DNA from: Candidatus Tumulicola sp.
GTDB taxonomy: Bacteria > Vulcanimicrobiota > Vulcanimicrobiia > Eremiobacterales > Eremiobacteraceae
Assembly (NCBI GenBank): GCA_035601835.1
Contig: DATNNM010000018.1
Coordinates: 62,001-126,000 of the forward strand
Length of the DNA: 64,000 bases
Direction: 5' to 3'
Positions 5,207 to 32,042 of the stretch are shown piece after piece (within the stretch, counting starts at the first letter, position 1; every line of letters begins with the position of its first letter). Under the pieces are notes generated by a model that saw only the letters and a list, made by a program, of their open reading frames with translations, made no database searches and was not told the DNA's origin. A program made the position numbers and the translations under genes.

Positions 5207-6562
5207 CTAGAAGGCGCCTGAGCCGCTGGGCGACCCGTTGCCGGTCGGGCCGTCATAGCCGGCGACCGCGTTGCACAGGTACGTGCCGCAACTGCCGTTG
5301 CTGCCGCCGACGACGTCGAACAGCGAGCTTGTATGGCTGTACGAGAACGAACCGTAGGTCACCGATGACGCGTTGCCGGCAAGGCCGTAGACCGACGCGA
5401 TGATCGGCGACGACACGCTGGTGCTGCCGAACACGAGCCAGCCGCAGCCGCGACGGCAGAAGCTGTCGTACACGGCCACGCCGGTGCTCGGATCGGCGAC
5501 CGCGGACACATCCGCGATGGTGCGATTGGCGCAGCCCGGGTCGGTCTGCCAGCTCGGCTTGGGCTCGAACGCGCTGCAGCCGCTGCCGGCGCCGCTCCAT
5601 GCCGTTTCGGACCAGCCGCGCGAGGTGCCGGCGCTGACCAGACTCGTGCCGCCGACGGCCGTCACGAATTGCGACGCTGCCGGATACTGCGCGCCGAAGC
5701 CGCTATCGCCGGAGCTTGCCGTGATGGCGACGCCGGGATGGTTGTAGTGCGTATCCGACGACAGCTCACCCGAAGACTCGCCGCCGCCGTAGCTGTTGCT
5801 GACCGCGTTGGCTCCCAAGTTTGCCGCCGTATCCACCGAAGCGGCGAGGTCCGCCAGCGAATTTGAATTCGCTTCGACCAGCAGGATGTGGCAATTGGGG
5901 CACGTCGCGGAGACCATGTCGACATCGAGCGAGATCTCTTGGGCCCACGAAGCGTTCGAACTTGGATAACTGCCCTGCGTGCCGCTTTGGTTGACTTTGC
6001 GGAAACAGCCGTTCGCGGTCGTGCACGGCGCGATGCCGAACTGCGCGCGATACACGCCGAGGTCGGCCTCGGCATTGGGGTCGTCAAAGGCGTCGACGAT
6101 CGCGACCGTTTGGCCGCTGCCGGCGCTGGACGGCAGCTTGTACGCCGACTGCAGCGTGCAGGGCGTGTAGCCCGGCGGCGGGTTGGTGCAATTGAAGCCG
6201 GTCGGCGGAGGCGTCGGGGTCGGACCTCCCGTCGGCGTCGGCGTCGGTGTTGGGCCGGGCGTCGGGGTCGCGGTTGGGCCCGGGGTCGGCGTGTGATGCT
6301 TGAGCGGTTGGATGCCCTGCGTCGGGATGTCGATGCGCATGAGCGCGTAGCAGCGGGCGTATCCCGACCCGACGTTAGCGCACGCGTGCGCGGCATTGCC
6401 GCGCACCCCGTTCGCTATATTGGAAGCCAGAATATCGACGTCGGAACTCGCCGCCACGTTAGCGGCCGGCGGAGCGCTCGTCGCCGTGGAGAGGTTCGAA
6501 CACGCGGCTGCGCTCGCAGCTAACGCGAACAAGGTGATGAATCGGAAAAGTTTAGACATCAT
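5207..6562 (-). CDS. secreted S53 (sedolisin/kumamolisin-like) serine protease
   Basis: Exported acid-protease-type S53 peptidase of about 451 residues. The N-terminus (MMSKLFRFITLFALAASAAAC) is a lipoprotein signal with a Cys after ASAAA. A Pro/Thr-rich linker covers roughly residues 90-120. The catalytic domain carries WAQEISLDVD (Glu and Asp of the triad), SSGDSGFG (oxyanion-hole Asp) and the nucleophile region GSTSVSSP, where the usual SGTS Gly is Ser. I use the ATG at 6562 rather than an upstream ATG at 6589, because GGGAG lies 8 nt before it. No large N-terminal propeptide is visible. It is followed by the permease gene and preceded by another secreted protease. Confidence 0.87.
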   Translation of the reverse strand: MMSKLFRFITLFALAASAAACSNLSTATSAPPAANVAASSDVDILASNIANGVRGNAAHACANVGSGYARCYALMRIDIPTQGIQPLKHHTPTPGPTATPTPGPTPTPTPTGGPTPTPPPTGFNCTNPPPGYTPCTLQSAYKLPSSAGSGQTVAIVDAFDDPNAEADLGVYRAQFGIAPCTTANGCFRKVNQSGTQGSYPSSNASWAQEISLDVDMVSATCPNCHILLVEANSNSLADLAASVDTAANLGANAVSNSYGGGESSGELSSDTHYNHPGVAITASSGDSGFGAQYPAASQFVTAVGGTSLVSAGTSRGWSETAWSGAGSGCSAFEPKPSWQTDPGCANRTIADVSAVADPSTGVAVYDSFCRRGCGWLVFGSTSVSSPIIASVYGLAGNASSVTYGSFSYSHTSSLFDVVGGSNGSCGTYLCNAVAGYDGPTGNGSPSGSGAF

Positions 6563-6664
6563 GCATGCTCCCTGCAAATGCAACGACACCCGGATACAAG
6601 CGATCCCGCCCCGCGTTTCGGCGCAGGGACGGCAGCGACCTTGCCTCGACGCGACGCGCTTCGC

Positions 6665-8146
6665 TTACGTATGGTTGAGGGTCGCGAGCGCGTCGATGCG
6701 TCCCTGGCCTTGATGCGCGTCGCCGATGTTGTGAGCCCAGGTCCTTATGGTGATGCGTGCGGTGTTCGGCGAAATCCCCGGCGTCTTCGAGGCCATGAGC
6801 GCGGCGAGACCCGCGACGTGCGGCGTCGCTTGCGACGTGCCGGCGAAAAACGCGCTGTGGAAGCCGGTGCCGCTGAACGCCGTGGTCGAGTAGTTGTTGA
6901 TGACCCACTGGAGATAGTCGCATGCCGGCGAAACTCCGCAGCTCTGCTGGGCAAGTGTCGGATCGCCGCCGGGCGCGACCACGTCAAGCCGCGAACCGAA
7001 GTTCGAATACGACGCTACGTATTCTGTGGGCGAGGACGGAGTCGTGGTGTCGTCAATGGCGCTCGCACCGACCGCGATCACGCCGGTATACGCTGCGGGG
7101 AAGTCGACGATGTTCGCCGAGCCGTTGCCTGAAGCGCCCACCAAGATGACGCCCGCGGTGATCGCCGCGGCCGCAGCCGCCGATTCAGTCGGATCGGAGC
7201 TGGCCGAGCCGTAGCTCATGCTGATGACTTTCGCGCCGTGCGCGACCGCGTAGTTGATCGCCGCGGCCGAGTCCGCCGACGACGCGGTTGGGTTCGGGGT
7301 TCCGCTCGTCGGGTGCGGGAAGATGCGGATCTCCATGAGGCTGACGTTCCAGCCCACGCCGGCCCAGCGCAGCGCGTTGTTGGTCGATCCGGCCGCGATG
7401 CTGCTGACGTTGGTGCCGTGGCCGTCGTTGTCTTGCGCGGTGGCGAGCAGGTCTTGGACGCCGGTTCCGAGATCGAACACCGCGCTGTTCACGACCTTGG
7501 CGCACAAGTCCGCGTTGTTGGCGTCATAGCCCGTGTCGATCATGGCGATGATCACGGACGACGAGCCTGTCGTGATATCCCAAGCGGCGGGCATGTTGGT
7601 GATCCACATGTCCTGCTGCACGTGCGTCGTCTGCGGACCCGTGAGCATCTGACTTGCTGTGCCGAAGCCCGGATCGTTGGGGATCGTCGTCTGGAGATAG
7701 CGCGGCACGACCGGCGCCGCGTCGACGATGCCCGGAGTTCCGCGCAGAGCGGCGGCCGCCGAAGCGGCGTCGCGGCCCTGCGGCAGATCGATGACGGCCC
7801 AGCCTTGCGGATTGACCGGCGCGGACTGCTTGCCGCCGATGCGACCAAGCGCAGCGGTCACAGCGGGTTCTTGGCCCGTTCCCGAATATTTGACTGACAC
7901 GCGCGCGAGCGGCATGCTCGGTTGCTGCTGGCCGCGGTTCACCGGGCGCACGAACGGCGTGTCGGGCACGCCCGCGGTGATGCTCGATGCCCCGCTATTG
8001 CATCCGGCGATACCCGCTGGTGTCGGCGTCGGGGTGGGGCCCCCGCCGCCGCCGGTGCCGCCGCCGCCGCCGCTGCACGCGGCGAGCGCCAAAGCGGCGA
8101 TGATCGAAAGCGCCTTGAGGCGCGGAGCAAGATTGCGAAGCTTCAT
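6665..8146 (-). CDS. secreted S8 subtilisin-like serine protease (lipoprotein)
   Basis: A 493-residue subtilase. The signal peptide ends in LALAAC, a lipobox, followed by poly-Gly and a short PTPTP linker. A propeptide-like region (about 60-150) precedes the catalytic domain. The triad is visible: Asp in IAMIDTGYD, His in DGHGTNVSSIAAG, Ser in FAGTSQATPHVAGLAALMA. It is probably anchored to or released from the outer face of the cell, degrading extracellular protein. The ATG has GGAGG 10 nt upstream. It lies 102 bp upstream of the S53 gene on the same strand, so the two may form one secreted-protease unit. Confidence 0.92.
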   Translation of the reverse strand: MKLRNLAPRLKALSIIAALALAACSGGGGGTGGGGGPTPTPTPAGIAGCNSGASSITAGVPDTPFVRPVNRGQQQPSMPLARVSVKYSGTGQEPAVTAALGRIGGKQSAPVNPQGWAVIDLPQGRDAASAAAALRGTPGIVDAAPVVPRYLQTTIPNDPGFGTASQMLTGPQTTHVQQDMWITNMPAAWDITTGSSSVIIAMIDTGYDANNADLCAKVVNSAVFDLGTGVQDLLATAQDNDGHGTNVSSIAAGSTNNALRWAGVGWNVSLMEIRIFPHPTSGTPNPTASSADSAAAINYAVAHGAKVISMSYGSASSDPTESAAAAAAITAGVILVGASGNGSANIVDFPAAYTGVIAVGASAIDDTTTPSSPTEYVASYSNFGSRLDVVAPGGDPTLAQQSCGVSPACDYLQWVINNYSTTAFSGTGFHSAFFAGTSQATPHVAGLAALMASKTPGISPNTARITIRTWAHNIGDAHQGQGRIDALATLNHT

Positions 8147-8246
8147 TAAGGCAAGGCCTCCAAATTGGGTTAGGTGAGCGCCCCAGGCTCAAACGGAGGG
8201 TTCCGTTTGCGGCGGCCGGCGTCCCGCCGCGTTCCCGAATCATTCA

Positions 8247-8275
8247 TCTATATATAACGACATAATGGCGCACAA
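8247..8275 (-). promoter_or_regulatory. possible sigma70-type promoter for the S8 protease gene
   Basis: On the minus strand TTGTGC, a 17-bp spacer and TATAGA lie about 100 bp before the S8 start. They sit in an AT-rich patch (ATCTATATATAAC) that stands out in this high-GC 180-bp divergent gap. The match is weak (3/6 and 4/6) and the same patch could serve the histidine kinase gene on the other strand. Confidence 0.3.
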
Positions 8276-8326
8276 AGTGCAGTGCCCGCCGGAGGTCCCG
8301 CTCGTCACGGACATAATTGACCGCGC

Positions 8327-9496
8327 ATGGCGGTATCCCGGCGCACCGACGACCTGAGCATCCTTAATGCCATCGCGGAGGAGCTCAATCGCACGGTGGA
8401 TGTCGACGAAGCGCTCGATCGCACGCTCGCCCTCGTCACCAAACTGCTGCGCCTTTCGACCGGCTGGATCTGGCTCCTCGACCCGGAGACCGCGCATTTC
8501 TACAAAGCGGCGGCGCACAATCTGCCGCCGTACTTGCAAGATCCGGTGCGCATGGCGGGCAGCTGGTGCACCTGCACCGAGGAGTTCGGTGAAGGCCATC
8601 TCGCCGCGAAGAACATCGACGTGATCGAGTGCAGCCGTCTCAAGCCCGCGGTGGAGAAAAATCTGACGGACCTGACGCAGGGCTTGCGCTTTCATGCGAG
8701 CATCCCGTTGTATTTCCAAGACAAGCCGCTGGGCATCATGAACCTCACCGGTCCGAAGTGGCGGCGCCTCACCAAAGACGAACTGCGCCTGCTGTCGATG
8801 ATCGGCTATCAGATCGGCATCACGGTCGAACGCGCGCGGTTGGCGGAAGAAAGCGCGCGCCTGGCGCGGGCCGAGGAGCGCACGCGCATCGCGCGCGAGA
8901 TCCACGACACCCTCGCGCAGGGTCTGACGGCGATCGCGCTGCAGATCGAGGCGGCGCTGCAGCGGATCGATGGCTCGGCGGTCGAGGCGCGAGCGCGTTT
9001 GGAGCGCGCGCTCGACGTCGCACGCGAAAATCTCGAAGACGCGCGCCGCTCGGTGCTGGCGTTGCGCTCGTCGCCGCCGCGCGGCCCGCTCGGCGAGGCG
9101 CTGACGGCATTGGCGCGGGGCTTCACGTCCGAAACGGGCGTGCGCGTGCGCGTGCGCCGGAGCGCCGGCGATCTCGCGCTGCCGCCGTCGTTCGAAGATG
9201 AATTGTTCCGCATCGCTCAGGAGTCGCTGGCCAACGTCCGCAAACACGCCGGCGCCACCGAGGTCGTGATGACCCTGCACGCGCGCGCGCGCGCGGTCCG
9301 CCTCACGGTCGCCGATAACGGCCGCGGTTTTCGGATGTCCAAGACGAGCGGCGCCGGCGAAAGCGGGCAAGGCATCCTCGGCATGCGCGAGCGCGCGCGC
9401 TTGCTCGGGGGCGATCTTCGCATCAGCAGCATACCCGGGCGCGGCACCACGGTGACGGCGAGCGCCAAAGTGCCCGCGGTTGGTGCGCGCTCGTGA
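8327..9496 (+). CDS. GAF-domain sensor histidine kinase (NarX/LiaS-type, HisKA_3)
   Basis: Soluble two-component sensor of 389 residues with no membrane helix. A GAF domain (about 15-170) is followed by the dimerisation/phosphoacceptor segment RIAREIHDTLAQGL (His193) and an HATPase domain with NVRKHAGA, DNGRGF and GILGMRERARLLGGDL. The GAF domain contains a Cys cluster (C81 and C83 in WCTCTEE, C102 in ECSR) that could bind a metal, Fe-S cluster or act as a thiol sensor. That is inference. The gene overlaps the response-regulator gene by 4 bp (GTGA), so the pair is translationally coupled and presumably cognate. Confidence 0.93.
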   Translation: MAVSRRTDDLSILNAIAEELNRTVDVDEALDRTLALVTKLLRLSTGWIWLLDPETAHFYKAAAHNLPPYLQDPVRMAGSWCTCTEEFGEGHLAAKNIDVIECSRLKPAVEKNLTDLTQGLRFHASIPLYFQDKPLGIMNLTGPKWRRLTKDELRLLSMIGYQIGITVERARLAEESARLARAEERTRIAREIHDTLAQGLTAIALQIEAALQRIDGSAVEARARLERALDVARENLEDARRSVLALRSSPPRGPLGEALTALARGFTSETGVRVRVRRSAGDLALPPSFEDELFRIAQESLANVRKHAGATEVVMTLHARARAVRLTVADNGRGFRMSKTSGAGESGQGILGMRERARLLGGDLRISSIPGRGTTVTASAKVPAVGARS

Positions 9497-10110
9497 TCAC
9501 GATCGTGTTGGTGGACGACCATCCGGTGGTGCGTGAAGGCCTGAGCGCAGTGTTGGAGCAGGAGGCGGATTTTCGCGTGGTGGGCGCTGTGTCGAGCGGC
9601 GAGGAACTGCTCCGCGTTTTGGAACGCCAGCAGCCGGATGTGATCTTGCTCGATCTCGAATTGCCCGGCATGAGCGGAGTGGAAGCCCTTGGGCGTCTGG
9701 GCCGCTCATCCGCGGCGCGCGTCATCGTCTTCACCGCGTATGGAACCGACGACAAGATCATCCCCGCGATCCGCGCCGGCGCCAAAGGCTATCTGCTCAA
9801 GGGCGCTCCGGCGCAAGAGATCGTGAAGGCCGTGCGCGCCGTGCACGAGGGCGGCACGCATCTCGCGCCGCACGTCGCAGCCAGACTGATGGCCGAGATC
9901 ACGCAGCCCAAGAGCGCCGGCGCGTTGAGTCCTCGAGAAGTCGAAGTGATCCGCCTCGTGAGCGATGGGCGCAGCAACAAGCAGATCGCGAGCGAGTTGG
10001 GCATCACGGAACGCACGGTCAAGTACCACGTGAGTTCGGTGATGAGCAAACTGGGCGCGGACAATCGCGCTCAGGCGGTGGCGCTGGCCTCGCAGCGCGG
10101 CCTGTTGTAA
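9493..10110 (+). CDS. NarL/FixJ-family response regulator with LuxR HTH
   Basis: DNA-binding response regulator, 205 residues. The receiver domain has the acidic pair D8-D9, the phosphoacceptor D54 in ILLDLELPGMSG and Lys in KGYLLKGA. The C-terminal LuxR-type helix-turn-helix is clear (LSPREVEVIRLVSDGRSNKQIA followed by TERTVKYHVSSVMSKLG). GTG start inside the histidine kinase stop region. It is expected to be phosphorylated by the upstream GAF kinase and to control promoters elsewhere. A GTAG-family repeat follows its stop codon directly. Confidence 0.94.
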   Translation: MITIVLVDDHPVVREGLSAVLEQEADFRVVGAVSSGEELLRVLERQQPDVILLDLELPGMSGVEALGRLGRSSAARVIVFTAYGTDDKIIPAIRAGAKGYLLKGAPAQEIVKAVRAVHEGGTHLAPHVAARLMAEITQPKSAGALSPREVEVIRLVSDGRSNKQIASELGITERTVKYHVSSVMSKLGADNRAQAVALASQRGLL

Positions 10111-20927: not shown

Positions 20928-20956
20928 TTGAAAACGGCCCTTTTTCGCTATATAAT
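20928..20956 (+). promoter_or_regulatory. sigma70-type promoter of nrdJ
   Basis: TTGAAA (-35), exactly 17 bp, then TATAAT (-10, a perfect match). This is the strongest promoter match I see in the window. Transcription would begin near 20963, giving a leader of about 135 nt before nrdJ. Because only 25 bp separate nrdJ from the CBASS genes, this promoter may also drive them. Confidence 0.75.
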
Positions 20957-21097: not shown

Positions 21098-24000
21098 ATG
21101 AAGATCGAGCGGCGCTTCACCCAGCCAGGCATCGACCCGTTGGATGCCGTCGAGTGGGATCGTCGGGAGTCCGTGATTCGCGAACCCGACGGCACAGTCG
21201 TGTTCGAGATGCGCGACCTCGAGGTCCCCAAGAGCTGGTCGCAAGTCGCCACCGATATTCTGGCCCAGAAATACTTCCGCAAAGCCGGCGTGCCGCAGCC
21301 GGATGGCTCGCTGGGAAAAGAGACGTCAGCGCGCCAGGTGATGCGCCGTTTGGCCGGCTGCTGGACCGACTGGGGACGTCGCTACGGTTATTTCGATACC
21401 GATGACGACGCCGCCGCGTTCGACGCAGAGTTGACCCACATGCTCATCAACCAGATGGCGGCGCCGAATTCACCGCAGTGGTTCAATACCGGCCTCGCGT
21501 ATGCGTACGGGATCAAGGGCACGCCACAAGGACATTATTATGTAGACCCAGCGACGAATGAAGTCCGAGAATCGGAAGATTCCTACTCCCGAATTCAGGG
21601 CCATGCTTGCTTTATCCAATCGGTTGACGATGATCTCGTAAATGCAAACGGCATCATGGACTTATGGGTTCGTGAAGCGCGCATATTTAAAATGGGCTCA
21701 GGTTCAGGAAGTAACTACTCGAATTTGCGCGCTGAGGGCGAAACGCTCGCTGGCGGTGGCACATCGAGTGGGCTAATGTCATTTCTTCGGGTCGGAGATC
21801 GCGCAGCAGGTGCCATCAAGAGCGGCGGCACAACTCGCCGCGCCGCGAAGATGGTCGTGCTCGATATGGATCACCCGGATATCGACAAGTTCATCAATTG
21901 GAAGGTGGACGAGGAGAAAAAGGCGGCAGCTTTGATTGCTGCGGGCTTCGATGGTTCGTACGAGGGCGAGGCTTATCAAACGGTTTCGGGCCAAAACTCC
22001 AACAACTCCGTGCGCGTTCCTGACCGATTCGTTGACGCAGTGCTCAACGACGGAACGTGGGACCTTACTTGGCGGACGAATGGGCAGGTGGCCCGCACGG
22101 TCCGCGCGCGAGATCTCTGGAATCAGATTGCAAGCGCAGCGTGGTCGTGCGCAGATCCTGGAGTCCAATACGATGACATCATTAATTCGTGGCACACATG
22201 CCCAGCTGGTGGACGTATTCGCGCAAGTAATCCCTGCAGCGAGTACCTCCATCTAGATGATACAGGATGCAATCTTGCTAGCCTGAACCTCATGAAATTT
22301 TACGATACCGAACGCAACATATTCGACACTGATGTTTTCAAGCATGCCGTTCGCCTCTGGACAATCGTTCTTGAAATAACAGTAGTCATGGCGCACTTCC
22401 CCAGCGCGAAGATCGCTCGGAATTCGTACGATTATCGTGAACTCGGCCTCGGCTATGCCAATCTCGGTACGCTGCTTATGGTGTCTGGTATCCCATATGA
22501 TTCACCGCGAGCTCTCGCCATTTGCGGCGCAATCACTGCAATGCTGACAGGCGAGTCTTATGCAACATCGGCGGAGATGGCAGCGCAGCTTGGGCCATTC
22601 CCACGATACTCCGAAAACGCTGATGCGATGCTCCGGGTGATCCGCAATCACCGGCGTGTGACTTACAACGCCCCAGCACAGGAATACGAAGGCCTGCGTA
22701 TCCTGCCAATGGGGATCGACCAAACGCTTTGCCCGCCATATCTCCTCGCCGCCGCGCGCGATTGTTGGGATCGTGCGCTGGCTGTTGGCGAGCAACATGG
22801 ATACCGAAACTCGCAAGCCTCGGTACTGGCGCCGACTGGAACTATCGGTCTCCTTATGAGCTGCGATACGACCGGTGTTGAGCCCGACTTCGCGATCGTG
22901 AAATTCAAGAAGTTGTCGGGCGGCGGATATTTCAAGATCGTAAACGAGTCGCTTGTGCTCGCTCTGCGCAACCTACGCTACAAGCAATCGCAGATTGATG
23001 ACATTATTCGATATGTGAATGGAACCGGCACCCTCAATGGAGCGCCTTACATCAATACTGAAACCCTTCGAGCGAGGCGCTTCACTGACGAGGACCTGGC
23101 GAAAATCGAGAAGGCGCTCCCGAGCGCGTTTGAGATAAGCTTCGCTTTCACATCGTGGGCATTGGGCGAAGAGGCGATGAACCGCCTTGGATTCACAACG
23201 GAGCAGTACTCAGTACCTGGTTTTGATCTGCTTCGCGAGCTTGGCTATAGCCGAGAAGAAATAGATGCGGCGAACAATGCAATCTGCGGCGCCATGACCG
23301 TCGAGGGTGCCCCGCACTTGAAGGAGGAGCACTACGCGATCTTCGATTGCGCGAATAAATGCGGCAAGATCGGCAAACGCTTCATTCACCACATGGGTCA
23401 CGTTCGAATGATGGCCGCTGCCCAACCGTTGATCTCAGGCGGGATTTCCAAGACGATCAATATGCCGAACGAAGTCTCCGTAGCGGATGTTCAAGAAGTG
23501 TACATGCGCTCTTGGGAGCTTGGAGTGAAATGCATCGCCCTTTATCGAGACGGTTCTAAGCTCTCGCAACCGCTCTCGAACAAAGGCTCTGATAAGACAA
23601 CCCGGGGCGAAGACGACCGTCAGCTGGCGCTTTCTGAAGACTTTGAACGCCGCATCGAGGAGGCGCGCCATCAACGCGCTGAGGAGTTGCGACCTGATGA
23701 GATCCTTGCCGCAGCGCAACGCATTCTCGCCAACACGACCAACACCGAGTTTCGCCGGAATATTGCCAAAGTCGTCGAGCGCAACCGCCTGCCGGCCAAG
23801 CGCCGCGGCTGGACCCAAAAGGCTAAAATCGCTGGTCATACGGTATTCTTGCGTACCGGCGAGTACGGCGACGGAACGCTCGGTGAGATATTCATCGATC
23901 TCCACAAGGAAGGTGCGTCCTTCCGAAGCCTGACAAACTGTTTTGCGATCGCCATTTCGATCGGCTTGCAATATGGCGTGCCACTGGAAGAGTTCGTCGA

Positions 24001-24508
24001 CAAATTTGTCTTCACGCGCTTTGAGCCGAACGGTTTCGTCGATCATCCGAACATCAAACATTGTACGAGCGTAGTTGACTACATCTTCCGCGTGCTCGGC
24101 ATGGAATATCTAGGACGCACCGATTTCGTCCAGGTCAAACCGGAAGACCGCGATGTCGACTCGACCAACCACGAAGAGCTAGCAGAGGCAGAATTCGAAG
24201 CCCGCGTGGCCGCGCAGCAGGTGGCTGAAGAATCGTCTGCCGGGCGCTTGGCGGATGCCCGATCCCCCCAAGCAAGAGCGCAGAACGGCAATTCCAACCG
24301 CAGGAAAGACTCCAGCCGTGCTAACGTCGGTCAGGGGACGGTCGATCCCGTACTTGCTGATGTCATGGCGGCGATGCGTTCGCGCGAAGCGCAAATGGCC
24401 TCGATGATGGGCGACGCCCCGCTGTGCGACGTCTGCGGCTCGATCACGCGGCGCAACGGCGCATGCTACGTCTGCGACTCGTGTGGTCGGAGCATGGGCT
24501 GCTCCTAA
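21098..24508 (+). CDS. nrdJ: adenosylcobalamin-dependent (class II) ribonucleotide reductase
   Basis: Reduces ribonucleotides to deoxyribonucleotides using adenosylcobalamin, so DNA precursors are made with or without oxygen. At 1136 residues it is a long class II enzyme. The catalytic barrel carries NSPQWFNTG, GHACFIQSV (redox Cys), SNPCSEYLHLDDTGCNLASLNL (Asn-Cys-Glu active site) and APTGTIGLLM. A TSCPD domain follows (about 890-1010, WTQKAKIAGHTVFLR through HPNIKHCTSVVDYIF) and a C-terminal zinc-ribbon/redox tail (LCDVCGS, CYVCDSCGRSMGCS). Start ATG with GAGAGG 8 nt upstream. Codons and GC from about 21540 to 23760 differ from both ends of the gene. CBASS genes follow after 25 bp. Confidence 0.95.
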   Translation: MKIERRFTQPGIDPLDAVEWDRRESVIREPDGTVVFEMRDLEVPKSWSQVATDILAQKYFRKAGVPQPDGSLGKETSARQVMRRLAGCWTDWGRRYGYFDTDDDAAAFDAELTHMLINQMAAPNSPQWFNTGLAYAYGIKGTPQGHYYVDPATNEVRESEDSYSRIQGHACFIQSVDDDLVNANGIMDLWVREARIFKMGSGSGSNYSNLRAEGETLAGGGTSSGLMSFLRVGDRAAGAIKSGGTTRRAAKMVVLDMDHPDIDKFINWKVDEEKKAAALIAAGFDGSYEGEAYQTVSGQNSNNSVRVPDRFVDAVLNDGTWDLTWRTNGQVARTVRARDLWNQIASAAWSCADPGVQYDDIINSWHTCPAGGRIRASNPCSEYLHLDDTGCNLASLNLMKFYDTERNIFDTDVFKHAVRLWTIVLEITVVMAHFPSAKIARNSYDYRELGLGYANLGTLLMVSGIPYDSPRALAICGAITAMLTGESYATSAEMAAQLGPFPRYSENADAMLRVIRNHRRVTYNAPAQEYEGLRILPMGIDQTLCPPYLLAAARDCWDRALAVGEQHGYRNSQASVLAPTGTIGLLMSCDTTGVEPDFAIVKFKKLSGGGYFKIVNESLVLALRNLRYKQSQIDDIIRYVNGTGTLNGAPYINTETLRARRFTDEDLAKIEKALPSAFEISFAFTSWALGEEAMNRLGFTTEQYSVPGFDLLRELGYSREEIDAANNAICGAMTVEGAPHLKEEHYAIFDCANKCGKIGKRFIHHMGHVRMMAAAQPLISGGISKTINMPNEVSVADVQEVYMRSWELGVKCIALYRDGSKLSQPLSNKGSDKTTRGEDDRQLALSEDFERRIEEARHQRAEELRPDEILAAAQRILANTTNTEFRRNIAKVVERNRLPAKRRGWTQKAKIAGHTVFLRTGEYGDGTLGEIFIDLHKEGASFRSLTNCFAIAISIGLQYGVPLEEFVDKFVFTRFEPNGFVDHPNIKHCTSVVDYIFRVLGMEYLGRTDFVQVKPEDRDVDSTNHEELAEAEFEARVAAQQVAEESSAGRLADARSPQARAQNGNSNRRKDSSRANVGQGTVDPVLADVMAAMRSREAQMASMMGDAPLCDVCGSITRRNGACYVCDSCGRSMGCS

Positions 24509-24533
24509 TCGAGCAACTCAAGAAAAGTGCAAA

Positions 24534-25508
24534 ATGTCTACGATACTCTCTCCAAAAATTGGCCACGCTGACATTGTCGCGTTCGCGGAAGAGCGTGTAA
24601 ACCTAAAACGCGACGACGTCAAGGAGGAACGCGCACAGGTACAGCGCTTGCGCGACCGACTCGCTGATCATATCGCGGCAAATCCTGAGTTTGATCTTGT
24701 CAAGATGATCGGGTCGGGCAGCCTTGCTAAAGGTACGTCGCTGAAAACGATCAACGACATCGACGTTGCAGTGTATGTTAAACAAGGCGAGGCGCCTACA
24801 GACGAGTCGGCCCTTCTCGAATGGATAGCCGAACGGTTGCGCGATGCCTACGGTAAGCTCGTGCGCCCGGATCAGATTCAGCCCGGTGTCCACGCCGTTA
24901 CGATTTCGTTCTACGGCACTGGTCTCGACGTCGATGTTGTGCCTATTCTCTACGAAGGTGACGAAGAGCTGTACGGATACCTCATAACGGATACGGGCGA
25001 TCGCGTACTGACGTGCATTCCTCGACATCTTGAGTTTATCCGGACGCGCAAGAAGTCATGGCCAAAGCACTTCAGACAACTGATTCGCCTCACCAAGTGG
25101 TGGGCGAAAACGCAAGGGGAAGCAAACCGGGCTTTTCGATGCAAGAGCTTCATGCTCGAGTTAATCGTCGCAAAAAGTTTCGACGACGGCCTGGACGGGT
25201 CAGACTATCCACGTGCGCTGGAACAAATCTTCTCCTGTATCGTCAAGGGCGGGCTCAAAGAGAAAATCGTCTTCGGCGACTACTACTCTCCGGCAGACGT
25301 GAAGACCGACGGCAGACCCATCCAAATTTACGACCCGGTTAACCCCGTGAACAACGTCGCTGCTCGGTATTCCGACGGGGAGCGCAGCGCAATCGTGGCG
25401 GCGGCCACGGCTGCCCTTGAAGCCATCACATATGCGAGCTACGCTACGACGAAGGCTATTGCGCTCGGACAGTGGCGGAAAGTTTTCGGACCGGAGTTCT
25501 CAGCATGA
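24534..25508 (+). CDS. CBASS CD-NTase (cGAS/DncV-like nucleotide cyclase)
   Basis: Signal-producing enzyme of a CBASS anti-phage system: on infection it joins nucleotides into a cyclic oligonucleotide that activates the effector. A 324-residue protein with the nucleotidyltransferase core GSGSLAKGTSLKTINDIDVAV (Gly-Ser at 60-63, Asp75 and Asp77) and the third carboxylate in LDVDVVPI (Asp134). The C-terminal helical domain ends in the OAS-type motif YDPVNPVNNVA. Association with HORMA and TRIP13 genes suggests clade C or D. I use ATG 24534 (MSTILS); an in-frame ATG at 24483 lies inside nrdJ. Its stop overlaps the HORMA gene (ATGA). Confidence 0.93.
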   Translation: MSTILSPKIGHADIVAFAEERVNLKRDDVKEERAQVQRLRDRLADHIAANPEFDLVKMIGSGSLAKGTSLKTINDIDVAVYVKQGEAPTDESALLEWIAERLRDAYGKLVRPDQIQPGVHAVTISFYGTGLDVDVVPILYEGDEELYGYLITDTGDRVLTCIPRHLEFIRTRKKSWPKHFRQLIRLTKWWAKTQGEANRAFRCKSFMLELIVAKSFDDGLDGSDYPRALEQIFSCIVKGGLKEKIVFGDYYSPADVKTDGRPIQIYDPVNPVNNVAARYSDGERSAIVAAATAALEAITYASYATTKAIALGQWRKVFGPEFSA

Positions 25509-25999
25509 GTTTCACCCAAACAACAACTGCGTCTTTCACGCGCGTCCACGCCCTTTATTTAACTTCGAAGCTGAAGACCGATCTAAAACTCCTGCAAGAC
25601 TTCTATGGTTCCCCTTCGGACAAAGCCATCGAGGACTATGGCGAGGAGATCGCCCTGTACGTCAACGCCATGTACCTGGACCGAGTGTGCTTCGGGTTCA
25701 AGCGGAATGGGCGTTGGATAGCGCCCACAATCGAATATACAGCCGCACAACTCAGCGGAGTTGACCACGATCCCGGACGAATTCGACCGGGGCTCGACAT
25801 CCAAGGGGCGTCCTTCTCAAGCTATCTCTGGCATAGCAGCTACTTTGACAGACTGTCGCAGGCCGAACGCGAGGTCTTCAAGGCTTCGCTGCCAGTGCGG
25901 CGGACGCCGGCCGAAGAGGCCCCCGTGTCCGGCATCTGGACGTCCGACAACACATACTGCGCCGCCGGCCGGGCTCTGCGTCGGAGAACCCTTTCATGA
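25505..25999 (+). CDS. cap7: bacterial HORMA-domain protein (Cap7-type CBASS regulator)
   Basis: A 164-residue HORMA protein. In type III CBASS the closed HORMA, bound to a closure peptide, activates the CD-NTase, and the TRIP13-like ATPase opens it to switch signalling off. The sequence has the bacterial HORMA-1 pattern: SFTRVHALYLTSKLKTDL at the N-terminus, FYGSPSD, MYLDRVCFGFKRNGRWI and PTIEYTA. Only one HORMA gene is present, so this is the single-HORMA subtype. The start at 25505 overlaps the CD-NTase stop (ATGA) and its own stop overlaps the ATPase start (ATGA). The C-terminus is basic (ALRRRTLS). Confidence 0.88.
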   Translation: MSFTQTTTASFTRVHALYLTSKLKTDLKLLQDFYGSPSDKAIEDYGEEIALYVNAMYLDRVCFGFKRNGRWIAPTIEYTAAQLSGVDHDPGRIRPGLDIQGASFSSYLWHSSYFDRLSQAEREVFKASLPVRRTPAEEAPVSGIWTSDNTYCAAGRALRRRTLS

Positions 26000-26928
26000 A
26001 CGGAGAAGTTGCGGTCGAAACGCTAGACGTTTCTTCCTTCCCTGAGATGGATGCGAAACGACGATATGAATCCCTTGTAGGGCTCGAAGATCACAAATCT
26101 CGTCTGGCCAAGCAAATCGCCGTCGTGTTCACGCCGACCTACTTACATTCATGGGTCAAACGGTTCGGAAACGAGAAACTAGCTCAGATCGTCAGGAACC
26201 GTCCACCCCTCTTCATCTTCGCCGGTGATGTTGGTTGCGGAAAAACGGAACTTGCGGAAACGCTTGGAGACGCCGTAGCGCGCAACCTGGATATTGGCGT
26301 CAAGCTCTACCGACTGGCCCTTACGACTAGAGGTAGCGGTTTGGTCGGAGAAATGACCAAGCTGATTTCAACCGCTTTCGCCCGGGTGCGCACTGACGCG
26401 CAATCGTGGCGGGCCGCCAACGGAGATGCACGCGTCGGAGCGATCCTCTTTATTGATGAGGCCGATTCGCTCGGTGAGAGCCGCGAGACTGCGGAAATGC
26501 ACCATGAAGATCGGGTCGGCGTGAACGCGTTGATACGAGGGATTAATGATCTCGCACGTGCCGATCCACCTGTTGTTGTTGTCATGGCAACAAACCGCCC
26601 CGACTCCCTTGACATGGGGATTGTTCGACGTGCTGCTGACATCTTGATCTTCGATCGGCCTGGTGACGCTCATCGCCGACTAGTGCTGAACAATGCGCTC
26701 TGTCCTCCGCTTGACGTGCCGGACATTGATACGCTCGTGCGCGAGACTGGCGTTGTTGGGAATCGACCTTTCGGATACACATATTCCGATCTGACCCAGC
26801 GCTTAATCCCAAACATCGTTATCGCCGCATTGCCAAATAGTCGAATCGACATGCCGCTCGTGCAGCGTATTCTAGAACAAACACCGCCGACAAAGCCATT
26901 TCGGAGTGAAGCGCAACCTGCACGATGA
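25996..26928 (+). CDS. cap6: TRIP13/Pch2-like AAA+ ATPase (Cap6-type CBASS regulator)
   Basis: A 310-residue AAA+ remodeller that is expected to unfold the HORMA N-terminus and so disassemble the active CD-NTase complex, preventing accidental suicide. Walker A is GDVGCGKTE (77-85), Walker B ILFIDEAD (150-157), sensor 1 VMATNRPD (about 196-203) and a pair of Arg (RRAAD, 211-212) fits the Arg finger. The order and length match bacterial TRIP13 homologues. It overlaps both neighbours by 4 bp. Confidence 0.93.
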   Translation: MNGEVAVETLDVSSFPEMDAKRRYESLVGLEDHKSRLAKQIAVVFTPTYLHSWVKRFGNEKLAQIVRNRPPLFIFAGDVGCGKTELAETLGDAVARNLDIGVKLYRLALTTRGSGLVGEMTKLISTAFARVRTDAQSWRAANGDARVGAILFIDEADSLGESRETAEMHHEDRVGVNALIRGINDLARADPPVVVVMATNRPDSLDMGIVRRAADILIFDRPGDAHRRLVLNNALCPPLDVPDIDTLVRETGVVGNRPFGYTYSDLTQRLIPNIVIAALPNSRIDMPLVQRILEQTPPTKPFRSEAQPAR

Positions 26929-28139
26929 CGGATCCTCGAGGCCGGTGGTTCGTTAGCTACAAGCGCGAGAATAGTGATAGAGTCGGCACGCTAGCGTCAG
27001 CGCTTCATGAACATGGTATCCCTACTTGGCTTGACACCGAGAACCTCAAATCCGAACCAACTGATGATGCGACTAGGGCGGCAATCCGCCACGCCGAGAC
27101 TGCCGGCGCAATATTATTCGCGACTGGACTTGTCGCAAGCTCAGACGCCATTCGACTCGTTGAAGCGCCGGAGATACTCGGGCGGTGGCGACGGGATCCA
27201 AGCTTCGGAGTGGTGCCGGTTATTTCAGGTGGCCTGAACTACGAGGATGCTGGTCAAGTATATGGGGACTCAATAGCCGATCATGACCTGTCCCTCTGGA
27301 ACATCTACAAAGCACGTGATGTGAAGTTCTCCGACCTTGACGCTCGGGCTGTTAGTCAACGAATCTTAGAAGCGCGCCTCTCCGCTCTGCACGGCTATCT
27401 TCCTCCCAACGAGCCAATATCGATTGCGCTGTACACACGTGAGCGACCTCATGCTACTCTTGGGCGTTCGCTAAGCATAGACTGGTCCCACTGCTTCGAC
27501 CCGCGTCACTGTTCAGCGCTTGATTGGAGTGATCGGTTGCTGCCAACGCTAGATAATGTGGCTAAGGCTGTGCGAAGGCAGGCGTCCGGACGCACGGTCA
27601 TTGCCGAAGGGCTTCTAGGAATACCGGCAGCCTTTGCTCTTGGTGCTTGCTTCTCCACGACGCGCGGTGTTCGGATTTATTGGCGACAGGGAGCCTCGGA
27701 TACCGCCGACCAATTGTGGGGCCTCGATGCCCCTGCCGTTGCTGCAACCATCCAGGTGAAATCGGAATCTCGTACTCTCGGTGCGAAGGACCTAGCCGTT
27801 CTGGTTTCAGTAACGGGAGATGTTCGAGAAGATTTTGCTCGCACGGTAAAGGCGGTGCCGCCACTGCGATGCATCGTGGATGTGCTCCTCAGTCCGCCGT
27901 CGCGCCGCATAACCGGAGCCGAGGCGGCGATGATCGCACGTGCGACATCTGACGCCGTGCGCGACGCACGAACTACGTATGGCGCAACCGGCAAGGTCCA
28001 CCTCTTTTTTTCTGGTCCCGTCGGACTGGCGATGATGCTGGGCCAATTGTTCAACACATTTCCTCAAATCGCAACCTATGAATATGGTTCGGACCAAGAC
28101 CCACCTTATAGGCCAGCCGCTATAATAATCAATCCGTGA
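26925..28139 (+). CDS. cap12: TIR-SAVED CBASS effector (Cap12-like)
   Basis: Effector of the CBASS operon, 404 residues. The N-terminal TIR domain (about 1-150) has WFVSYKRENSDRV, GIPTWLDTENL and a Glu (E80 in SSDAIRLVEAPE) at the position of the NAD-hydrolysing Glu. The C-terminal half (about 165-404) is a SAVED domain, recognised by ending KVHLFFSGPVGLAMMLGQ and YEYG. In studied TIR-SAVED proteins, cyclic trinucleotide binding makes the protein stack into filaments so that TIR destroys NAD+ and the infected cell dies. It overlaps the ATPase stop by 4 bp (ATGA). Ligand identity here is inferred. Confidence 0.88.
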   Translation: MTDPRGRWFVSYKRENSDRVGTLASALHEHGIPTWLDTENLKSEPTDDATRAAIRHAETAGAILFATGLVASSDAIRLVEAPEILGRWRRDPSFGVVPVISGGLNYEDAGQVYGDSIADHDLSLWNIYKARDVKFSDLDARAVSQRILEARLSALHGYLPPNEPISIALYTRERPHATLGRSLSIDWSHCFDPRHCSALDWSDRLLPTLDNVAKAVRRQASGRTVIAEGLLGIPAAFALGACFSTTRGVRIYWRQGASDTADQLWGLDAPAVAATIQVKSESRTLGAKDLAVLVSVTGDVREDFARTVKAVPPLRCIVDVLLSPPSRRITGAEAAMIARATSDAVRDARTTYGATGKVHLFFSGPVGLAMMLGQLFNTFPQIATYEYGSDQDPPYRPAAIIINP

Positions 28140-28289
28140 AGTTCGAGGCTGTAGCGCGATCAGCATCGAAGTCGGCTCGCTTGGTCGCCCTTTTTCTCAG
28201 GCTATTCAAAACCGGCGCAAGCCATAATTGCCGTGGCATCTTCTTAATTCTTGCCTAATCCCCCAACATAACTCAAGGAGCTCAAAACC
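28140..28289. other. intergenic gap after the CBASS operon
   Basis: A 150-bp region with no ORF of note. It ends with AAGGAG 9 nt before the GTG of the next gene. No terminator, tRNA, attachment-site-like repeat or integrase remnant is visible, and no convincing promoter hexamer pair was found. Confidence 0.5.
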
Positions 28290-29057
28290 GTGACCCACCC
28301 AGTTCGGAACACGGCCCTCGCGGCCGGCATGTTCCTATCATGCCTTATCGCCGTCGCAGCCCAATCAATGGCGGCGGTGCCCTCTGCGCTGCTCCCGCCC
28401 GTGGGAGCATCACAGACGTTCACAGCCTCGATCCACTTCGATCGCCCGAGCGGCGCCGCGTTCAGCCCCAAGCCCGAACCCCAGGAAAGCGGCGGCAACT
28501 CGACCGACAAGAAAGAGACCAACGAGCGCGGCGGTGCCGAGCGCGGCTTCCGTCACGACCAATCCGGCACGCTGACCATCAAGCGTTCCTCGCAGGACGC
28601 GATTCAAGTGAGCAGCGGCGGCGCTCTCGATTCCTTCAACGCCTCGTATCCCGTCAATCCGACTTCAGCGGCCCCGGGCTCAAAGCCGAACCCGTTTGTC
28701 CAGGCCGTCTACAATGCGCTCGCGCTCGCGCCGAACAGCCCGAACCAGCTGCGCGCCGGCGATGAGTGGAACGCATCCATTCCGATCCATGCGGGTCGAA
28801 ATTCGCACGGCGCTCTGCCGATCAAAGTCAAGGTCATCTCGGTGAACGGCAACAGCGCCAAGCTCGAAGGCACTGGCAGCCAAACCCTGACCTTCACCTC
28901 GCCGCGCGGCCAACGACAAGCAGACGTCAGCGCCACGATCGCCATGACCCTCGTCGGCGGCCGTCTCAACGCCTACACCGAAAAGGTCTCGCGAACGATG
29001 CACGGGCAAGCCGGATCGTTCACGACCAGCAACACGACGATGCTGACCTCGCCCTAA
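28290..29057 (+). CDS. exported hypothetical protein
   Basis: A 255-residue protein with a signal peptide (ALAAGMFLSCLIAVAAQSMA). It contains a charged low-complexity stretch (about 60-95, KKETNERGGAERG) and a C-terminal beta-rich part with KVKVISVNGNSAKLEGTGSQTLTF. No family is recognised. GTG start with AAGGAG 9 nt upstream. A strong terminator follows 21 bp after the stop, so it is a monocistronic unit. Confidence 0.7.
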   Translation: MTHPVRNTALAAGMFLSCLIAVAAQSMAAVPSALLPPVGASQTFTASIHFDRPSGAAFSPKPEPQESGGNSTDKKETNERGGAERGFRHDQSGTLTIKRSSQDAIQVSSGGALDSFNASYPVNPTSAAPGSKPNPFVQAVYNALALAPNSPNQLRAGDEWNASIPIHAGRNSHGALPIKVKVISVNGNSAKLEGTGSQTLTFTSPRGQRQADVSATIAMTLVGGRLNAYTEKVSRTMHGQAGSFTTSNTTMLTSP

Positions 29058-29078
29058 GCAGGCGGCTCAAGCTCCAAT

Positions 29079-29118
29079 AAAAGAGCGGCAGCGTCCATCG
29101 CGACGTTGCCGCTCTTTT
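29079..29118 (+). terminator. rho-independent terminator
   Basis: AAAAGAGCGGCA pairs with TGCCGCTCTTTT with an inner extension of about 5 bp and a 6-nt loop, followed by TCTG. A stable GC-rich stem with a T run after the exported-protein gene. The AAAA on the left arm means it could work in both directions. Confidence 0.8.
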
Positions 29119-29168
29119 CTGCGCCCGGGGCAAAGGGCGCTGGTTTTTCAGAGCGAACGAGCGCCTGC

Positions 29169-29621
29169 ATGTGGATCGTGTTCGCCCACGTCGCGATCGT
29201 ATTCGTGGGTTTTGCCCTGACGGTCGGCACCGGAATTTTTCTCACGCAGATCATCCAAGGCGGCGACGTCCGTTCCATTCGAACCGCAGTGAATGCCGCG
29301 ATTCCGGCCCAGACGACGGGTGGCGTTCTGGTGCTGATCTCCGCTATCATCGGCTTTTTCGCGGCGATCAACCTCGGATTCGATCTGCACGCCCGATGGC
29401 TTTCGATCTCGATGGTTCTCGTCGTTATCCTTCTTCTGGAGGGCTTTGGGCGGCGTTATCCCCGCCTCTTACGGCTCGCAAAAGCCGCGAAGGACAGCCC
29501 GGAGGACCAGCCGTCGCCGGAGCTGCGCGCCTTGCTGGTCGACCGCTTCGAGGGACTTGGCAACGCGGTAAGCGGCATTATTTGGCTCAGCCTCCTCGTG
29601 ATGATGATCGTCAAGCCATAG
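29169..29621 (+). CDS. integral membrane protein (DUF2269-like)
   Basis: A 150-residue inner-membrane protein with about four hydrophobic segments (WIVFAHVAIVFVGFALTVG, VLVLISAIIGFFAAIN, LSISMVLVVILLLEG, IIWLSLLVMMIV). The pattern resembles DUF2269 membrane proteins, whose function is unknown. I start it at ATG 29169; the upstream in-frame ATG at 29106 lies within the terminator stem. The stop region overlaps the end of the convergent GNAT gene by 11 bp. Confidence 0.65.
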   Translation: MWIVFAHVAIVFVGFALTVGTGIFLTQIIQGGDVRSIRTAVNAAIPAQTTGGVLVLISAIIGFFAAINLGFDLHARWLSISMVLVVILLLEGFGRRYPRLLRLAKAAKDSPEDQPSPELRALLVDRFEGLGNAVSGIIWLSLLVMMIVKP

Positions 29622-30120
29622 GCCCCTTCTGGATTCGGTAGACCAAGTGCTCGATGCCGCGACGCATGACGATTTTCCAAACAACCATGCCCACCCGTTG
29701 CGCCACGGCGCGTGACGCTTCGTTCGCCGGACGGATGAGCGAGATGAGCTGCGAACGGCCAAGTTCATTGAACCCGTAGTCGCGGCACGCGATCGCGGCC
29801 TCGGTCGCGTAACCCTTGTGCCAGTAGGCGCTCTTCAACAAGTAGCCGATTTCCGTCTCACCTACGCCGTCGACGGTCTGTGCGAGCAAACCAACCTGAC
29901 CTACGAACTCCTGGGAAGAACGCAGCTCCACTGCCCACAAACCGTGGCCGTGCCGCGCGTAGCTCTCGCGCTGCCAGGCCAACCACTCCGCAGTCTCGCT
30001 GCGGTCCTTCAATCCCGGATAGTAGCGCATGACCAGCGGGTCGTTGAACATCGCGTACAACTCGTCGAAGTCGCCGTCCGTGAGTCGGCGAAGCGCAAGC
30101 CTTTGCGTTTCCAGAATCAA
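29611..30120 (-). CDS. GNAT acetyltransferase (RimJ/RimL-like), TTG start
   Basis: A 169-residue acetyl-CoA-dependent N-acetyltransferase. It opens LETQRLALRRLTDGDFDELY and has the acetyl-CoA segment YWHKGYATEAAIACRDYGF and RAVAQRVGM near the end, like the GNAT at 13200-13712. The start is TTG at 30120 overlapping the M48 protease stop (TTGA), so the two are translationally coupled. The longer ORF going up to 30225 is the shadow of the protease gene. Acceptor unknown. Confidence 0.85.
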   Translation of the reverse strand: MILETQRLALRRLTDGDFDELYAMFNDPLVMRYYPGLKDRSETAEWLAWQRESYARHGHGLWAVELRSSQEFVGQVGLLAQTVDGVGETEIGYLLKSAYWHKGYATEAAIACRDYGFNELGRSQLISLIRPANEASRAVAQRVGMVVWKIVMRRGIEHLVYRIQKGPMA

Positions 30121-32042
30121 TGCGCGAGTTTTTGGGGCTCGTCGATGTAGCCCTCGTACACCAAGCCGACGGCGATCTCCAACGACAACCCCAGCATGTG
30201 CTTCTGCAGCGTATAATCCTCGCACGTGCCGCCCGACGCCTGAACGTCTCGGAGCACCGCGTCAACGGGCGCCTTCGTCTCAAACGAGATCCACGACGCG
30301 CACGCGATATCGCCCGGCAGCGCGCCCGACTTGATCGCAGCGGGATAATCCGGAACGACGATGCCGTTGAAGCGATACGCCAGCGCCTTCGCATACGCTG
30401 CATAGCGCTCCGGCGCCGAATACAGGTCCAGCAGCGAGATCTCCGCCGAAAGATTGCGCGTCTGCGACACGTACATGAGCCCGTCGGACGCCTGTGCGTT
30501 GGCCGCGAGGTCATCCCACGTCGAGACCGCGTGATCCACGATGCTCTTCACCGTCGCCATCTTCTGATCCGGGATGTCGCCGGTCTGCGGATCGACCAGG
30601 TGCGTCAGCCCCATCACCGCGCTCACGGAGTTGGCTTCGGTATCGCCCCGCGCGACCGACGCGCGCGCGGCGTCCATAGCCGAGAGCAGCCCCTTGTCCG
30701 AGGTCGACAGATTCGCGATCAAAGATGGATAGTACGTCAGCAGCGTCTGCGTCTTGGGCGTCAGCCGCGGGTCCGCCATGAGATCATCCATCTCGCGCAG
30801 CGTCGCGCGGTTCTCCGCGATGAGGCCGGCAGCCGAGGAAAAGACGTCGCCGTCGAACTCCAGCGTCGCTGTCATGTCGCGCGCGATGCGCTCGAGCGCC
30901 CCCGTGATCGAGTGCAGGTTCGGCTGTTTGCCCTTGCCCGGCCCCGGACCGCTTCCCCCGCTGTCGGTCCCTTCGCTCGTGATGCGCTGCAGGCGCCCAG
31001 CGAGGGCATCGACGTTGCCGAGCCCGTCCCTCGCCTGCTTTTTCGCGGCGGTGAGCGCTGCATCGGTTTCGCCGATGACGGCGCGCAATTTGTTCATCGC
31101 ATCGGCGCGAGCCGAATCACCCGGCAGCGTCAGACTTGCGACGCGCGTATCCGCAGCCGCCCGCGGACCAGATTCACGCAGCGCGATGTCGAGCTGCGAG
31201 AGATGGCTCTGTGCCAGCGGATCACCCGCTGACGCTGCGCCCACCTCATTGAGCCGGGCGCGCGCGTACTGATAGCGGCCTTCTTCCTGATCGTGGATCG
31301 CCTGCGTCACCTGCGCGCCGGTAGAAGGGCGGTCAAGCTCCTGATATCCGAGCAGGTGCGAAACGCGATCGCGGGGATTCGGGTGATCCCGGAACGCTTT
31401 ATCCGCGCGGCTGTCCGGGCCGGGGTCCATCTTGCCAAGCTTCGTCATCATGTCGACGGTCGCGCGTGGATCGTAGCCCGCGGCCGTCATCATGGTGAGC
31501 CCGTAGTGATCGGCCTGCAACTCATCGGCGCGCGAGTAGCGGTCCATCGCGAGTTCGCCGCCCAAACCGCCGAGCAGCCCGACCACCGGCGACACGATCG
31601 AGAGGATGCCGAGCAAAATGCTCATGATCGTGGATTGATTGGCCTGTTTGGTCACGTGGTGCATCTCGACGTGACCCATCTCGTGACCGAGAATTCCAGC
31701 GAGCTCATCGTCTGCCGAGACGAAATTCAAGAGTCCGGTATTGACATGCACGAAGCCGCCCGGCAGCGCGAACGCGTTGATCTGGGGCGTGTCGATGATG
31801 ATGAACTTGTATTGGATGTCGGCGCGCTTGCGATGCTCGGAAAGCCTTTGGCCGATGCGCCCGACCCAGTCCGTCAGGAAAGGATCATTGACCAGCACGC
31901 TTTGCCGGTCGACTTGATCGCTCTCGTCGCGGCCCCTTGCGACCTCTTGCGACGTGCTCATCGCAACGGCCGGACTCACGTTGGACCATAGGAGCAGGGA
32001 GAGGCAGGCGGCGCTTGCCGCTCGCAGGGCCTTTTTGGTCAT
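30117..32042 (-). CDS. M48 family zinc metalloprotease (BepA-like) with long C-terminal region
   Basis: An exported 641-residue protein with signal peptide (MTKKALRAASAACLSLLLWS) and the Zn motif HEMGH (120-124), the third ligand Glu in RADELQADHYG, and the FALPGGFVHV segment typical of M48C. In Gram-negative bacteria this class (BepA/LoiP) works on outer-membrane assembly in the periplasm. BepA has TPR repeats of about 180 residues after the protease; here a longer, mostly helical C-terminal region of about 380 residues follows with no clear TPR. The ATG is preceded by AAGGA. It is divergent from a TPR-protein gene. Confidence 0.88.
   Translation of the reverse strand: MTKKALRAASAACLSLLLWSNVSPAVAMSTSQEVARGRDESDQVDRQSVLVNDPFLTDWVGRIGQRLSEHRKRADIQYKFIIIDTPQINAFALPGGFVHVNTGLLNFVSADDELAGILGHEMGHVEMHHVTKQANQSTIMSILLGILSIVSPVVGLLGGLGGELAMDRYSRADELQADHYGLTMMTAAGYDPRATVDMMTKLGKMDPGPDSRADKAFRDHPNPRDRVSHLLGYQELDRPSTGAQVTQAIHDQEEGRYQYARARLNEVGAASAGDPLAQSHLSQLDIALRESGPRAAADTRVASLTLPGDSARADAMNKLRAVIGETDAALTAAKKQARDGLGNVDALAGRLQRITSEGTDSGGSGPGPGKGKQPNLHSITGALERIARDMTATLEFDGDVFSSAAGLIAENRATLREMDDLMADPRLTPKTQTLLTYYPSLIANLSTSDKGLLSAMDAARASVARGDTEANSVSAVMGLTHLVDPQTGDIPDQKMATVKSIVDHAVSTWDDLAANAQASDGLMYVSQTRNLSAEISLLDLYSAPERYAAYAKALAYRFNGIVVPDYPAAIKSGALPGDIACASWISFETKAPVDAVLRDVQASGGTCEDYTLQKHMLGLSLEIAVGLVYEGYIDEPQKLAH

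Follow-up and report, generated by a model that had tools for sequence, protein, structure and literature searches.

The window, by which we mean the whole 64,000-nucleotide stretch of DNA analysed here, contains a complete CBASS gene set: a CdnC-like CD-NTase, a bacHORMA_1 protein, a TRIP13/Pch2 ATPase and a TIR-SAVED effector. Type III CBASS is defined by HORMA and TRIP13 beside a CD-NTase, and the gene content of this operon fits that definition. With a probability of roughly 0.88, we take it to be a complete and probably functional type III system, in which a HORMA/TRIP13-controlled cyclase would signal, probably through cA3, to a TIR-SAVED NADase.

The four modules of the operon

The four open reading frames run head to tail on the + strand, with an ATGA overlap at every junction:

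24534..25508, + strand: CdnC-like CD-NTase (CBASS_cyclase_a), 324 aa; NF041116, PDLC00808, 6p80
25505..25999, + strand: HORMA protein (bacHORMA_1; Cap7 family), 164 aa; PF18138, 6p8v_H
25996..26928, + strand: TRIP13/Pch2-like AAA+ ATPase (Cap6 family), 310 aa; PDLC00914, 6pb3
26925..28139, + strand: TIR-SAVED effector, 404 aa; TIR at about residues 1-130, SAVED at about 160-404

All four frames are intact, with no stops or frameshifts seen, and the mechanical ORF list gives earlier GTG starts for the first two. The operon occupies positions 86534-90139 of a 244,510-bp contig and is present as a single copy in the 2.57 Mb, 98% complete host genome. An earlier note on this DNA had described four co-directional genes joined by ATGA overlaps, and had called them type III CBASS on the strength of HORMA plus TRIP13; the frames were recovered just as it placed them, and the HMM search of the four proteins that it proposed confirmed all four families. 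By its own account that reading would fall if the 25505-25999 protein lacked a HORMA fold, the 26925-28139 protein a SAVED fold or the cyclase its catalytic carboxylates; the HORMA and SAVED families are matched far above cut-off, and the carboxylates are present in a sequence alignment of the cyclase to the solved 6p80.

Gene identity and order, intact motifs and, as a prediction, the effector fold are the observations on which our reading builds. The cyclase matches NF041116 at 376 bits (cut-off 200) and PDLC00808 at 392 bits, and its best solved relative is E. coli MS115-1 CdnC (PDB 6p80; phmmer E=4e-90). Its proposed GS...DID...D motif is in place, with the GS motif GSLAKGTSLKTINDID at 62 accompanied by D75-I-D77 and followed by LDVDVVP at 131. 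The second gene does encode a single HORMA protein, which matches PF18138 at 144 bits (cut-off 35.6) and 6p8v_H at E=3e-41, is 40-49% identical to proteobacterial partners and has a C-terminus shorter by a few residues. The third product, likewise assigned earlier as TRIP13-like, matches PDLC00914 at 328 bits and 6pb3 at E=1e-82, and has an intact Walker A (GDVGCGKT at 77) and Walker B (ILFIDEAD at 150). Across 18 CdnC-HORMA-TRIP13 operons these Walker motifs are kept, as are the GS...D-x-D and downstream D-V-D (or N-V-D) of the cyclase, and the window is complete for both proteins.

Family and fold matches together support a TIR-SAVED assignment for the fourth product. It matches PDLC02012 at 246 bits, the SAVED family PF18145 at 109 bits, NF033611 at 115 bits and the solved TIR-SAVED protein 7qqk at E=1e-13, and a profile of its family retrieves 7qqk at E=1e-32; the Pfam TIR_2 score alone is 27.9, just below the 28.0 cut-off. 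In an AlphaFold2 model (pLDDT 86.9, pTM 0.87) the predicted fold finds 7qqk, a cA3-bound TIR-SAVED, as its top PDB match over the full 7qqk length (E=5e-19, TM 0.71 and 0.67), well ahead of Cap4; Cap4 and Cap5 SAVED proteins are the next matches. All 18 TIR-SAVED proteins compared conserve residue E80, which aligns in HMMER with E84 of 7qqk, the catalytic residue of that protein. A type II assignment was rejected, as the E1/E2 and JAB genes (Cap2/Cap3) are absent from the four genes and their immediate neighbours.

Proposed mechanism and messenger

In a known type III system, HORMA activates the cyclase and TRIP13 takes apart the active complex (PMC10419184), while NAD+ is hydrolysed by TIR-SAVED filaments that form in response to cA3 (PMC10419184; PMC9704534), with cA3-induced filament formation and NADase activity both known for 7qqk (PMC10419184). 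The activation steps, messenger identity and NADase outcome that we propose for the window all draw on such solved or known relatives. Once infection is sensed, HORMA would bind and switch on the CdnC-like cyclase, which TRIP13 would otherwise hold off by remodelling HORMA. The active cyclase would then produce a cyclic trinucleotide, most likely 3'3'3'-cA3, joining TIR-SAVED subunits into head-to-tail filaments and completing the TIR active sites; these would hydrolyse NAD+, so that the infected cell would halt ahead of phage release.

Two facts make cA3 the probable messenger: cyclases of this family drive NucC, a cA3-activated nuclease (PMC10419184; PMC9704534) carried by some operons of the nearest cyclases, and the solved TIR-SAVED binds cA3. 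The cA3 specificity of the window effector is less than certain, since this protein shares only 21-24% identity with the 7qqk-like proteins and belongs to a clade separate from theirs (100/100). The same system might instead signal with a different cyclic dinucleotide or trinucleotide, such as a trimer that contains G or has a 2'-5' linkage, with which the effector co-evolved: the messenger bound by SAVED varies from protein to protein, to judge from the solved Cap4 and Cap5 ligands, and the window effector groups with haloarchaeal and actinobacterial proteins in a clade separate from that of 7qqk. Set against this are the operons that same-family cyclases share with cA3-sensing NucC, and the cA3 bound by the solved TIR-SAVED, and we regard a different messenger as improbable and cA3 as the probable one.

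Genomic setting behind a ribonucleotide reductase gene

The operon lies directly behind a housekeeping gene, in a region with the following further features:

20928..20956, + strand: promoter-like site TTGAAA-17-TATAAT, 11 of 12, upstream of RNR
21098..24508, + strand: class II (B12-dependent) ribonucleotide reductase (RNR), housekeeping, upstream of and outside the CBASS
24509..24533, + strand: 25-bp gap between RNR stop and CBASS start
24509..29610, no strand assigned: probable inserted segment (RNR and a GNAT gene are adjacent in relative G005)

No promoter-like or terminator-like match was found in the 25-bp gap, and the nearest good candidate promoter for RNR and CBASS would be the site at 20928..20956, promoter-like matches in the whole region being no more numerous than in shuffles. 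Co-transcription of RNR and CBASS is plausible given this short same-strand gap and the lack upstream of HTH/ImmA or WYL genes; in many plasmid relatives that position is filled by a divergent HTH and ImmA pair or a WYL gene, and the window has neither. In two relatives a strong hairpin follows RNR (z about -3). When the surroundings of the operon were scanned with Rfam for RNA elements, the one match was a tRNA located elsewhere.

In the relative G005, RNR directly faces a GNAT gene in convergent orientation, homologous to window 29611-30225 (- strand); as the two genes are adjacent there, about 5.1 kb was probably inserted in the window. Such an insertion could have left a decaying or silent passenger behind the RNR gene, and the 13 other same-family genomes searched yielded no HORMA or clear TIR-SAVED, none of the regions read behind RNR in relatives contains this operon, and the operon has no detected promoter of its own. 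Yet its four ATGA-coupled frames and all catalytic motifs are intact and expression would be possible through RNR read-through, and we think a passenger distinctly unlikely. A place directly behind RNR, on the same strand, might also suit HORMA/TRIP13 signalling that serves some purpose other than defence, such as a response to nucleotide stress through the link to ribonucleotide reductase. The relatives of the operon, however, occur on conjugative plasmids and beside integrases, as is typical of defence genes, and the RNR link is unique to the host genome among the loci seen; we give a non-defence role very little credence and retain a functional type III CBASS as our reading.

Other features of this region are recorded here for completeness. 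Between the CBASS and the GNAT gene, 28290-29057 encodes a protein that looks secreted and matches nothing in Pfam or PADLOC; a 36% identical homologue of it occurs in only one of the 13 family relatives (G009). A longer operon taking in 28290-29621 was rejected on the grounds of a 150-bp gap and no defence-family match, and 28290-29057 further because its homologue is in a relative where HORMA/TIR-SAVED was not found. The RNR of some same-family relatives is interrupted by inteins, with three intein-like insertions in G012 (locus L096, G012:C49:85600-92200) and one in G007 (L097, G007:C54:38100-42800), and with intein splicing and LAGLIDADG domains; the window RNR (21098-24508) has no inteins.

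Distribution, proposed effector exchange and known systems

The earlier note had asked how common TIR-SAVED is alongside HORMA/TRIP13, and the answer is that the combination is rare yet recurring. A TIR-SAVED family scan of 84,980 species genomes gave 41 loci, a lower bound given the limited sensitivity of the pattern search. The order cyclase-HORMA-TRIP13-TIR-SAVED is found at four of them (L025-L028), all actinobacterial: Leifsonia aquatica, Flaviflexus huanghaiensis, Leucobacter tardus and marine actinobacterium PHSC20C1. Of the remaining loci, a few have no type assigned and most represent type II operons, from haloarchaeal and actinobacterial genomes, that include E1/E2/JAB genes. Among plasmids, searches with HORMA and with the cyclase at E<=1e-40 each returned 43 records, with identical genus and mobility counts and the two genes adjacent where inspected. 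None of these 43 records carries TIR-SAVED, plasmid matches to which lie in other records; in the 11 operons inspected (of 43) the effectors are NucC, DUF6602 or nuclease-SAVED. Neither phage records (searched for TIR-SAVED) nor IMG/VR viral contigs (scanned with TIR-SAVED and with HORMA) yielded relatives.

Among 395 actinomycete genomes bacHORMA_1 occurs in only three, one with TIR-SAVED (the centre genome itself), one with nuclease-SAVED and one with a DUF6602 effector; in the host's own phylum it occurs in 2/149 genomes. The second HORMA genome of the phylum, G053, is of the same class; its HORMA/TRIP13 operon is divergent (L083, G053:C190:8000-20000; operon at about 5686-10011, minus strand) and is accompanied by a phosphorylase-SAVED effector, the PNP_UDP_1-SAVED gene lying upstream of the cyclase. 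DUF6602 (PF20247) fills the effector slot in several type III operons (L006, L010, L013, L085, L094, L095), and the phmmer match of the L013 protein to NucC suggests that DUF6602 effectors may be NucC-like nucleases under another name.

The effector and sensor trees are discordant. The tree of TIR-SAVED proteins puts all five effectors of type III operons on one side of a branch that is not strong (87/73), next to the haloarchaeal type II effectors, and both groups are split (100/100) from the 7qqk-like clade, a Mycolicibacterium member of which matches 7qqk at E=3e-127. The concatenated cyclase-HORMA-TRIP13 tree places the window with proteobacterial operons (96/93), on a long branch whose exact place is uncertain, and the actinobacterial TIR-SAVED operons with an actinobacterial DUF6602 operon (100/100). 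A topology in which the window and the TIR-SAVED operons of the actinobacteria form one group is rejected at p-AU 7e-49, assuming an adequate model. As these sensor modules are not sisters, TIR-SAVED has been paired with two separate type III sensor lineages, for which effector exchange would be the simplest reading.

TIR-SAVED is thus not limited to ubiquitin-like CBASS, and since no fewer than two distinct sensor lineages combine it with HORMA/TRIP13, exchange of effectors between CBASS types seems to take place, probably where the types have a messenger in common. A fuller scenario, which we offer tentatively and rather doubt, is a separate type III branch in a poorly sampled phylum, where an effector found mostly in type II joined HORMA/TRIP13 independently of the actinobacteria and the RNR transcript took over expression from the regulators that are usual for CBASS. 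Since every module and the four-gene order are already known elsewhere, these results refine the picture and do not change it; the five natural operons do allow one kind of killing enzyme to be compared under two control mechanisms.

Among known systems, the E. coli MS115-1 type III CBASS (CdnC, HORMA, TRIP13, NucC; PDB 6p80, 6p8v, 6u7b) has sensor proteins homologous to those of the window, which match them in phmmer at E=4e-90 for the cyclase, 3e-41 for HORMA and 2e-76 for TRIP13, but its effector is the NucC nuclease whereas that of the window is TIR-SAVED. The NucC-type plasmid operons share the cyclase/HORMA/TRIP13 order but are often preceded by divergent HTH and ImmA-type genes, which the window lacks. 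The effector most resembles 7qqk (Microbacterium ketosireducens), with TIR followed by SAVED, E80 aligned to E84 and the best fold match, but is about 23% identical to it and of a different clade (100/100), and close relatives of 7qqk occur in type II operons with E1/E2/JAB whereas the window effector is in a type III operon. The actinobacterial operons L025-L028 have an identical four-gene order and a TIR-SAVED that is 30-31% identical and weakly grouped with that of the window (87/73), but their HORMA is just 29-33% identical and their sensor modules are not sister to the window's. Finally, the haloarchaeal type II CBASS (L015, L018-L024, L030) have a TIR-SAVED that is 31-34% identical and in the same larger clade; an E2-like domain, ThiF (E1) and JAB are fused there in one protein beside TIR-SAVED (778 aa in L015), and control is ubiquitin-transfer-like (ThiF, JAB, E2), in contrast to the HORMA/TRIP13 control of the window.
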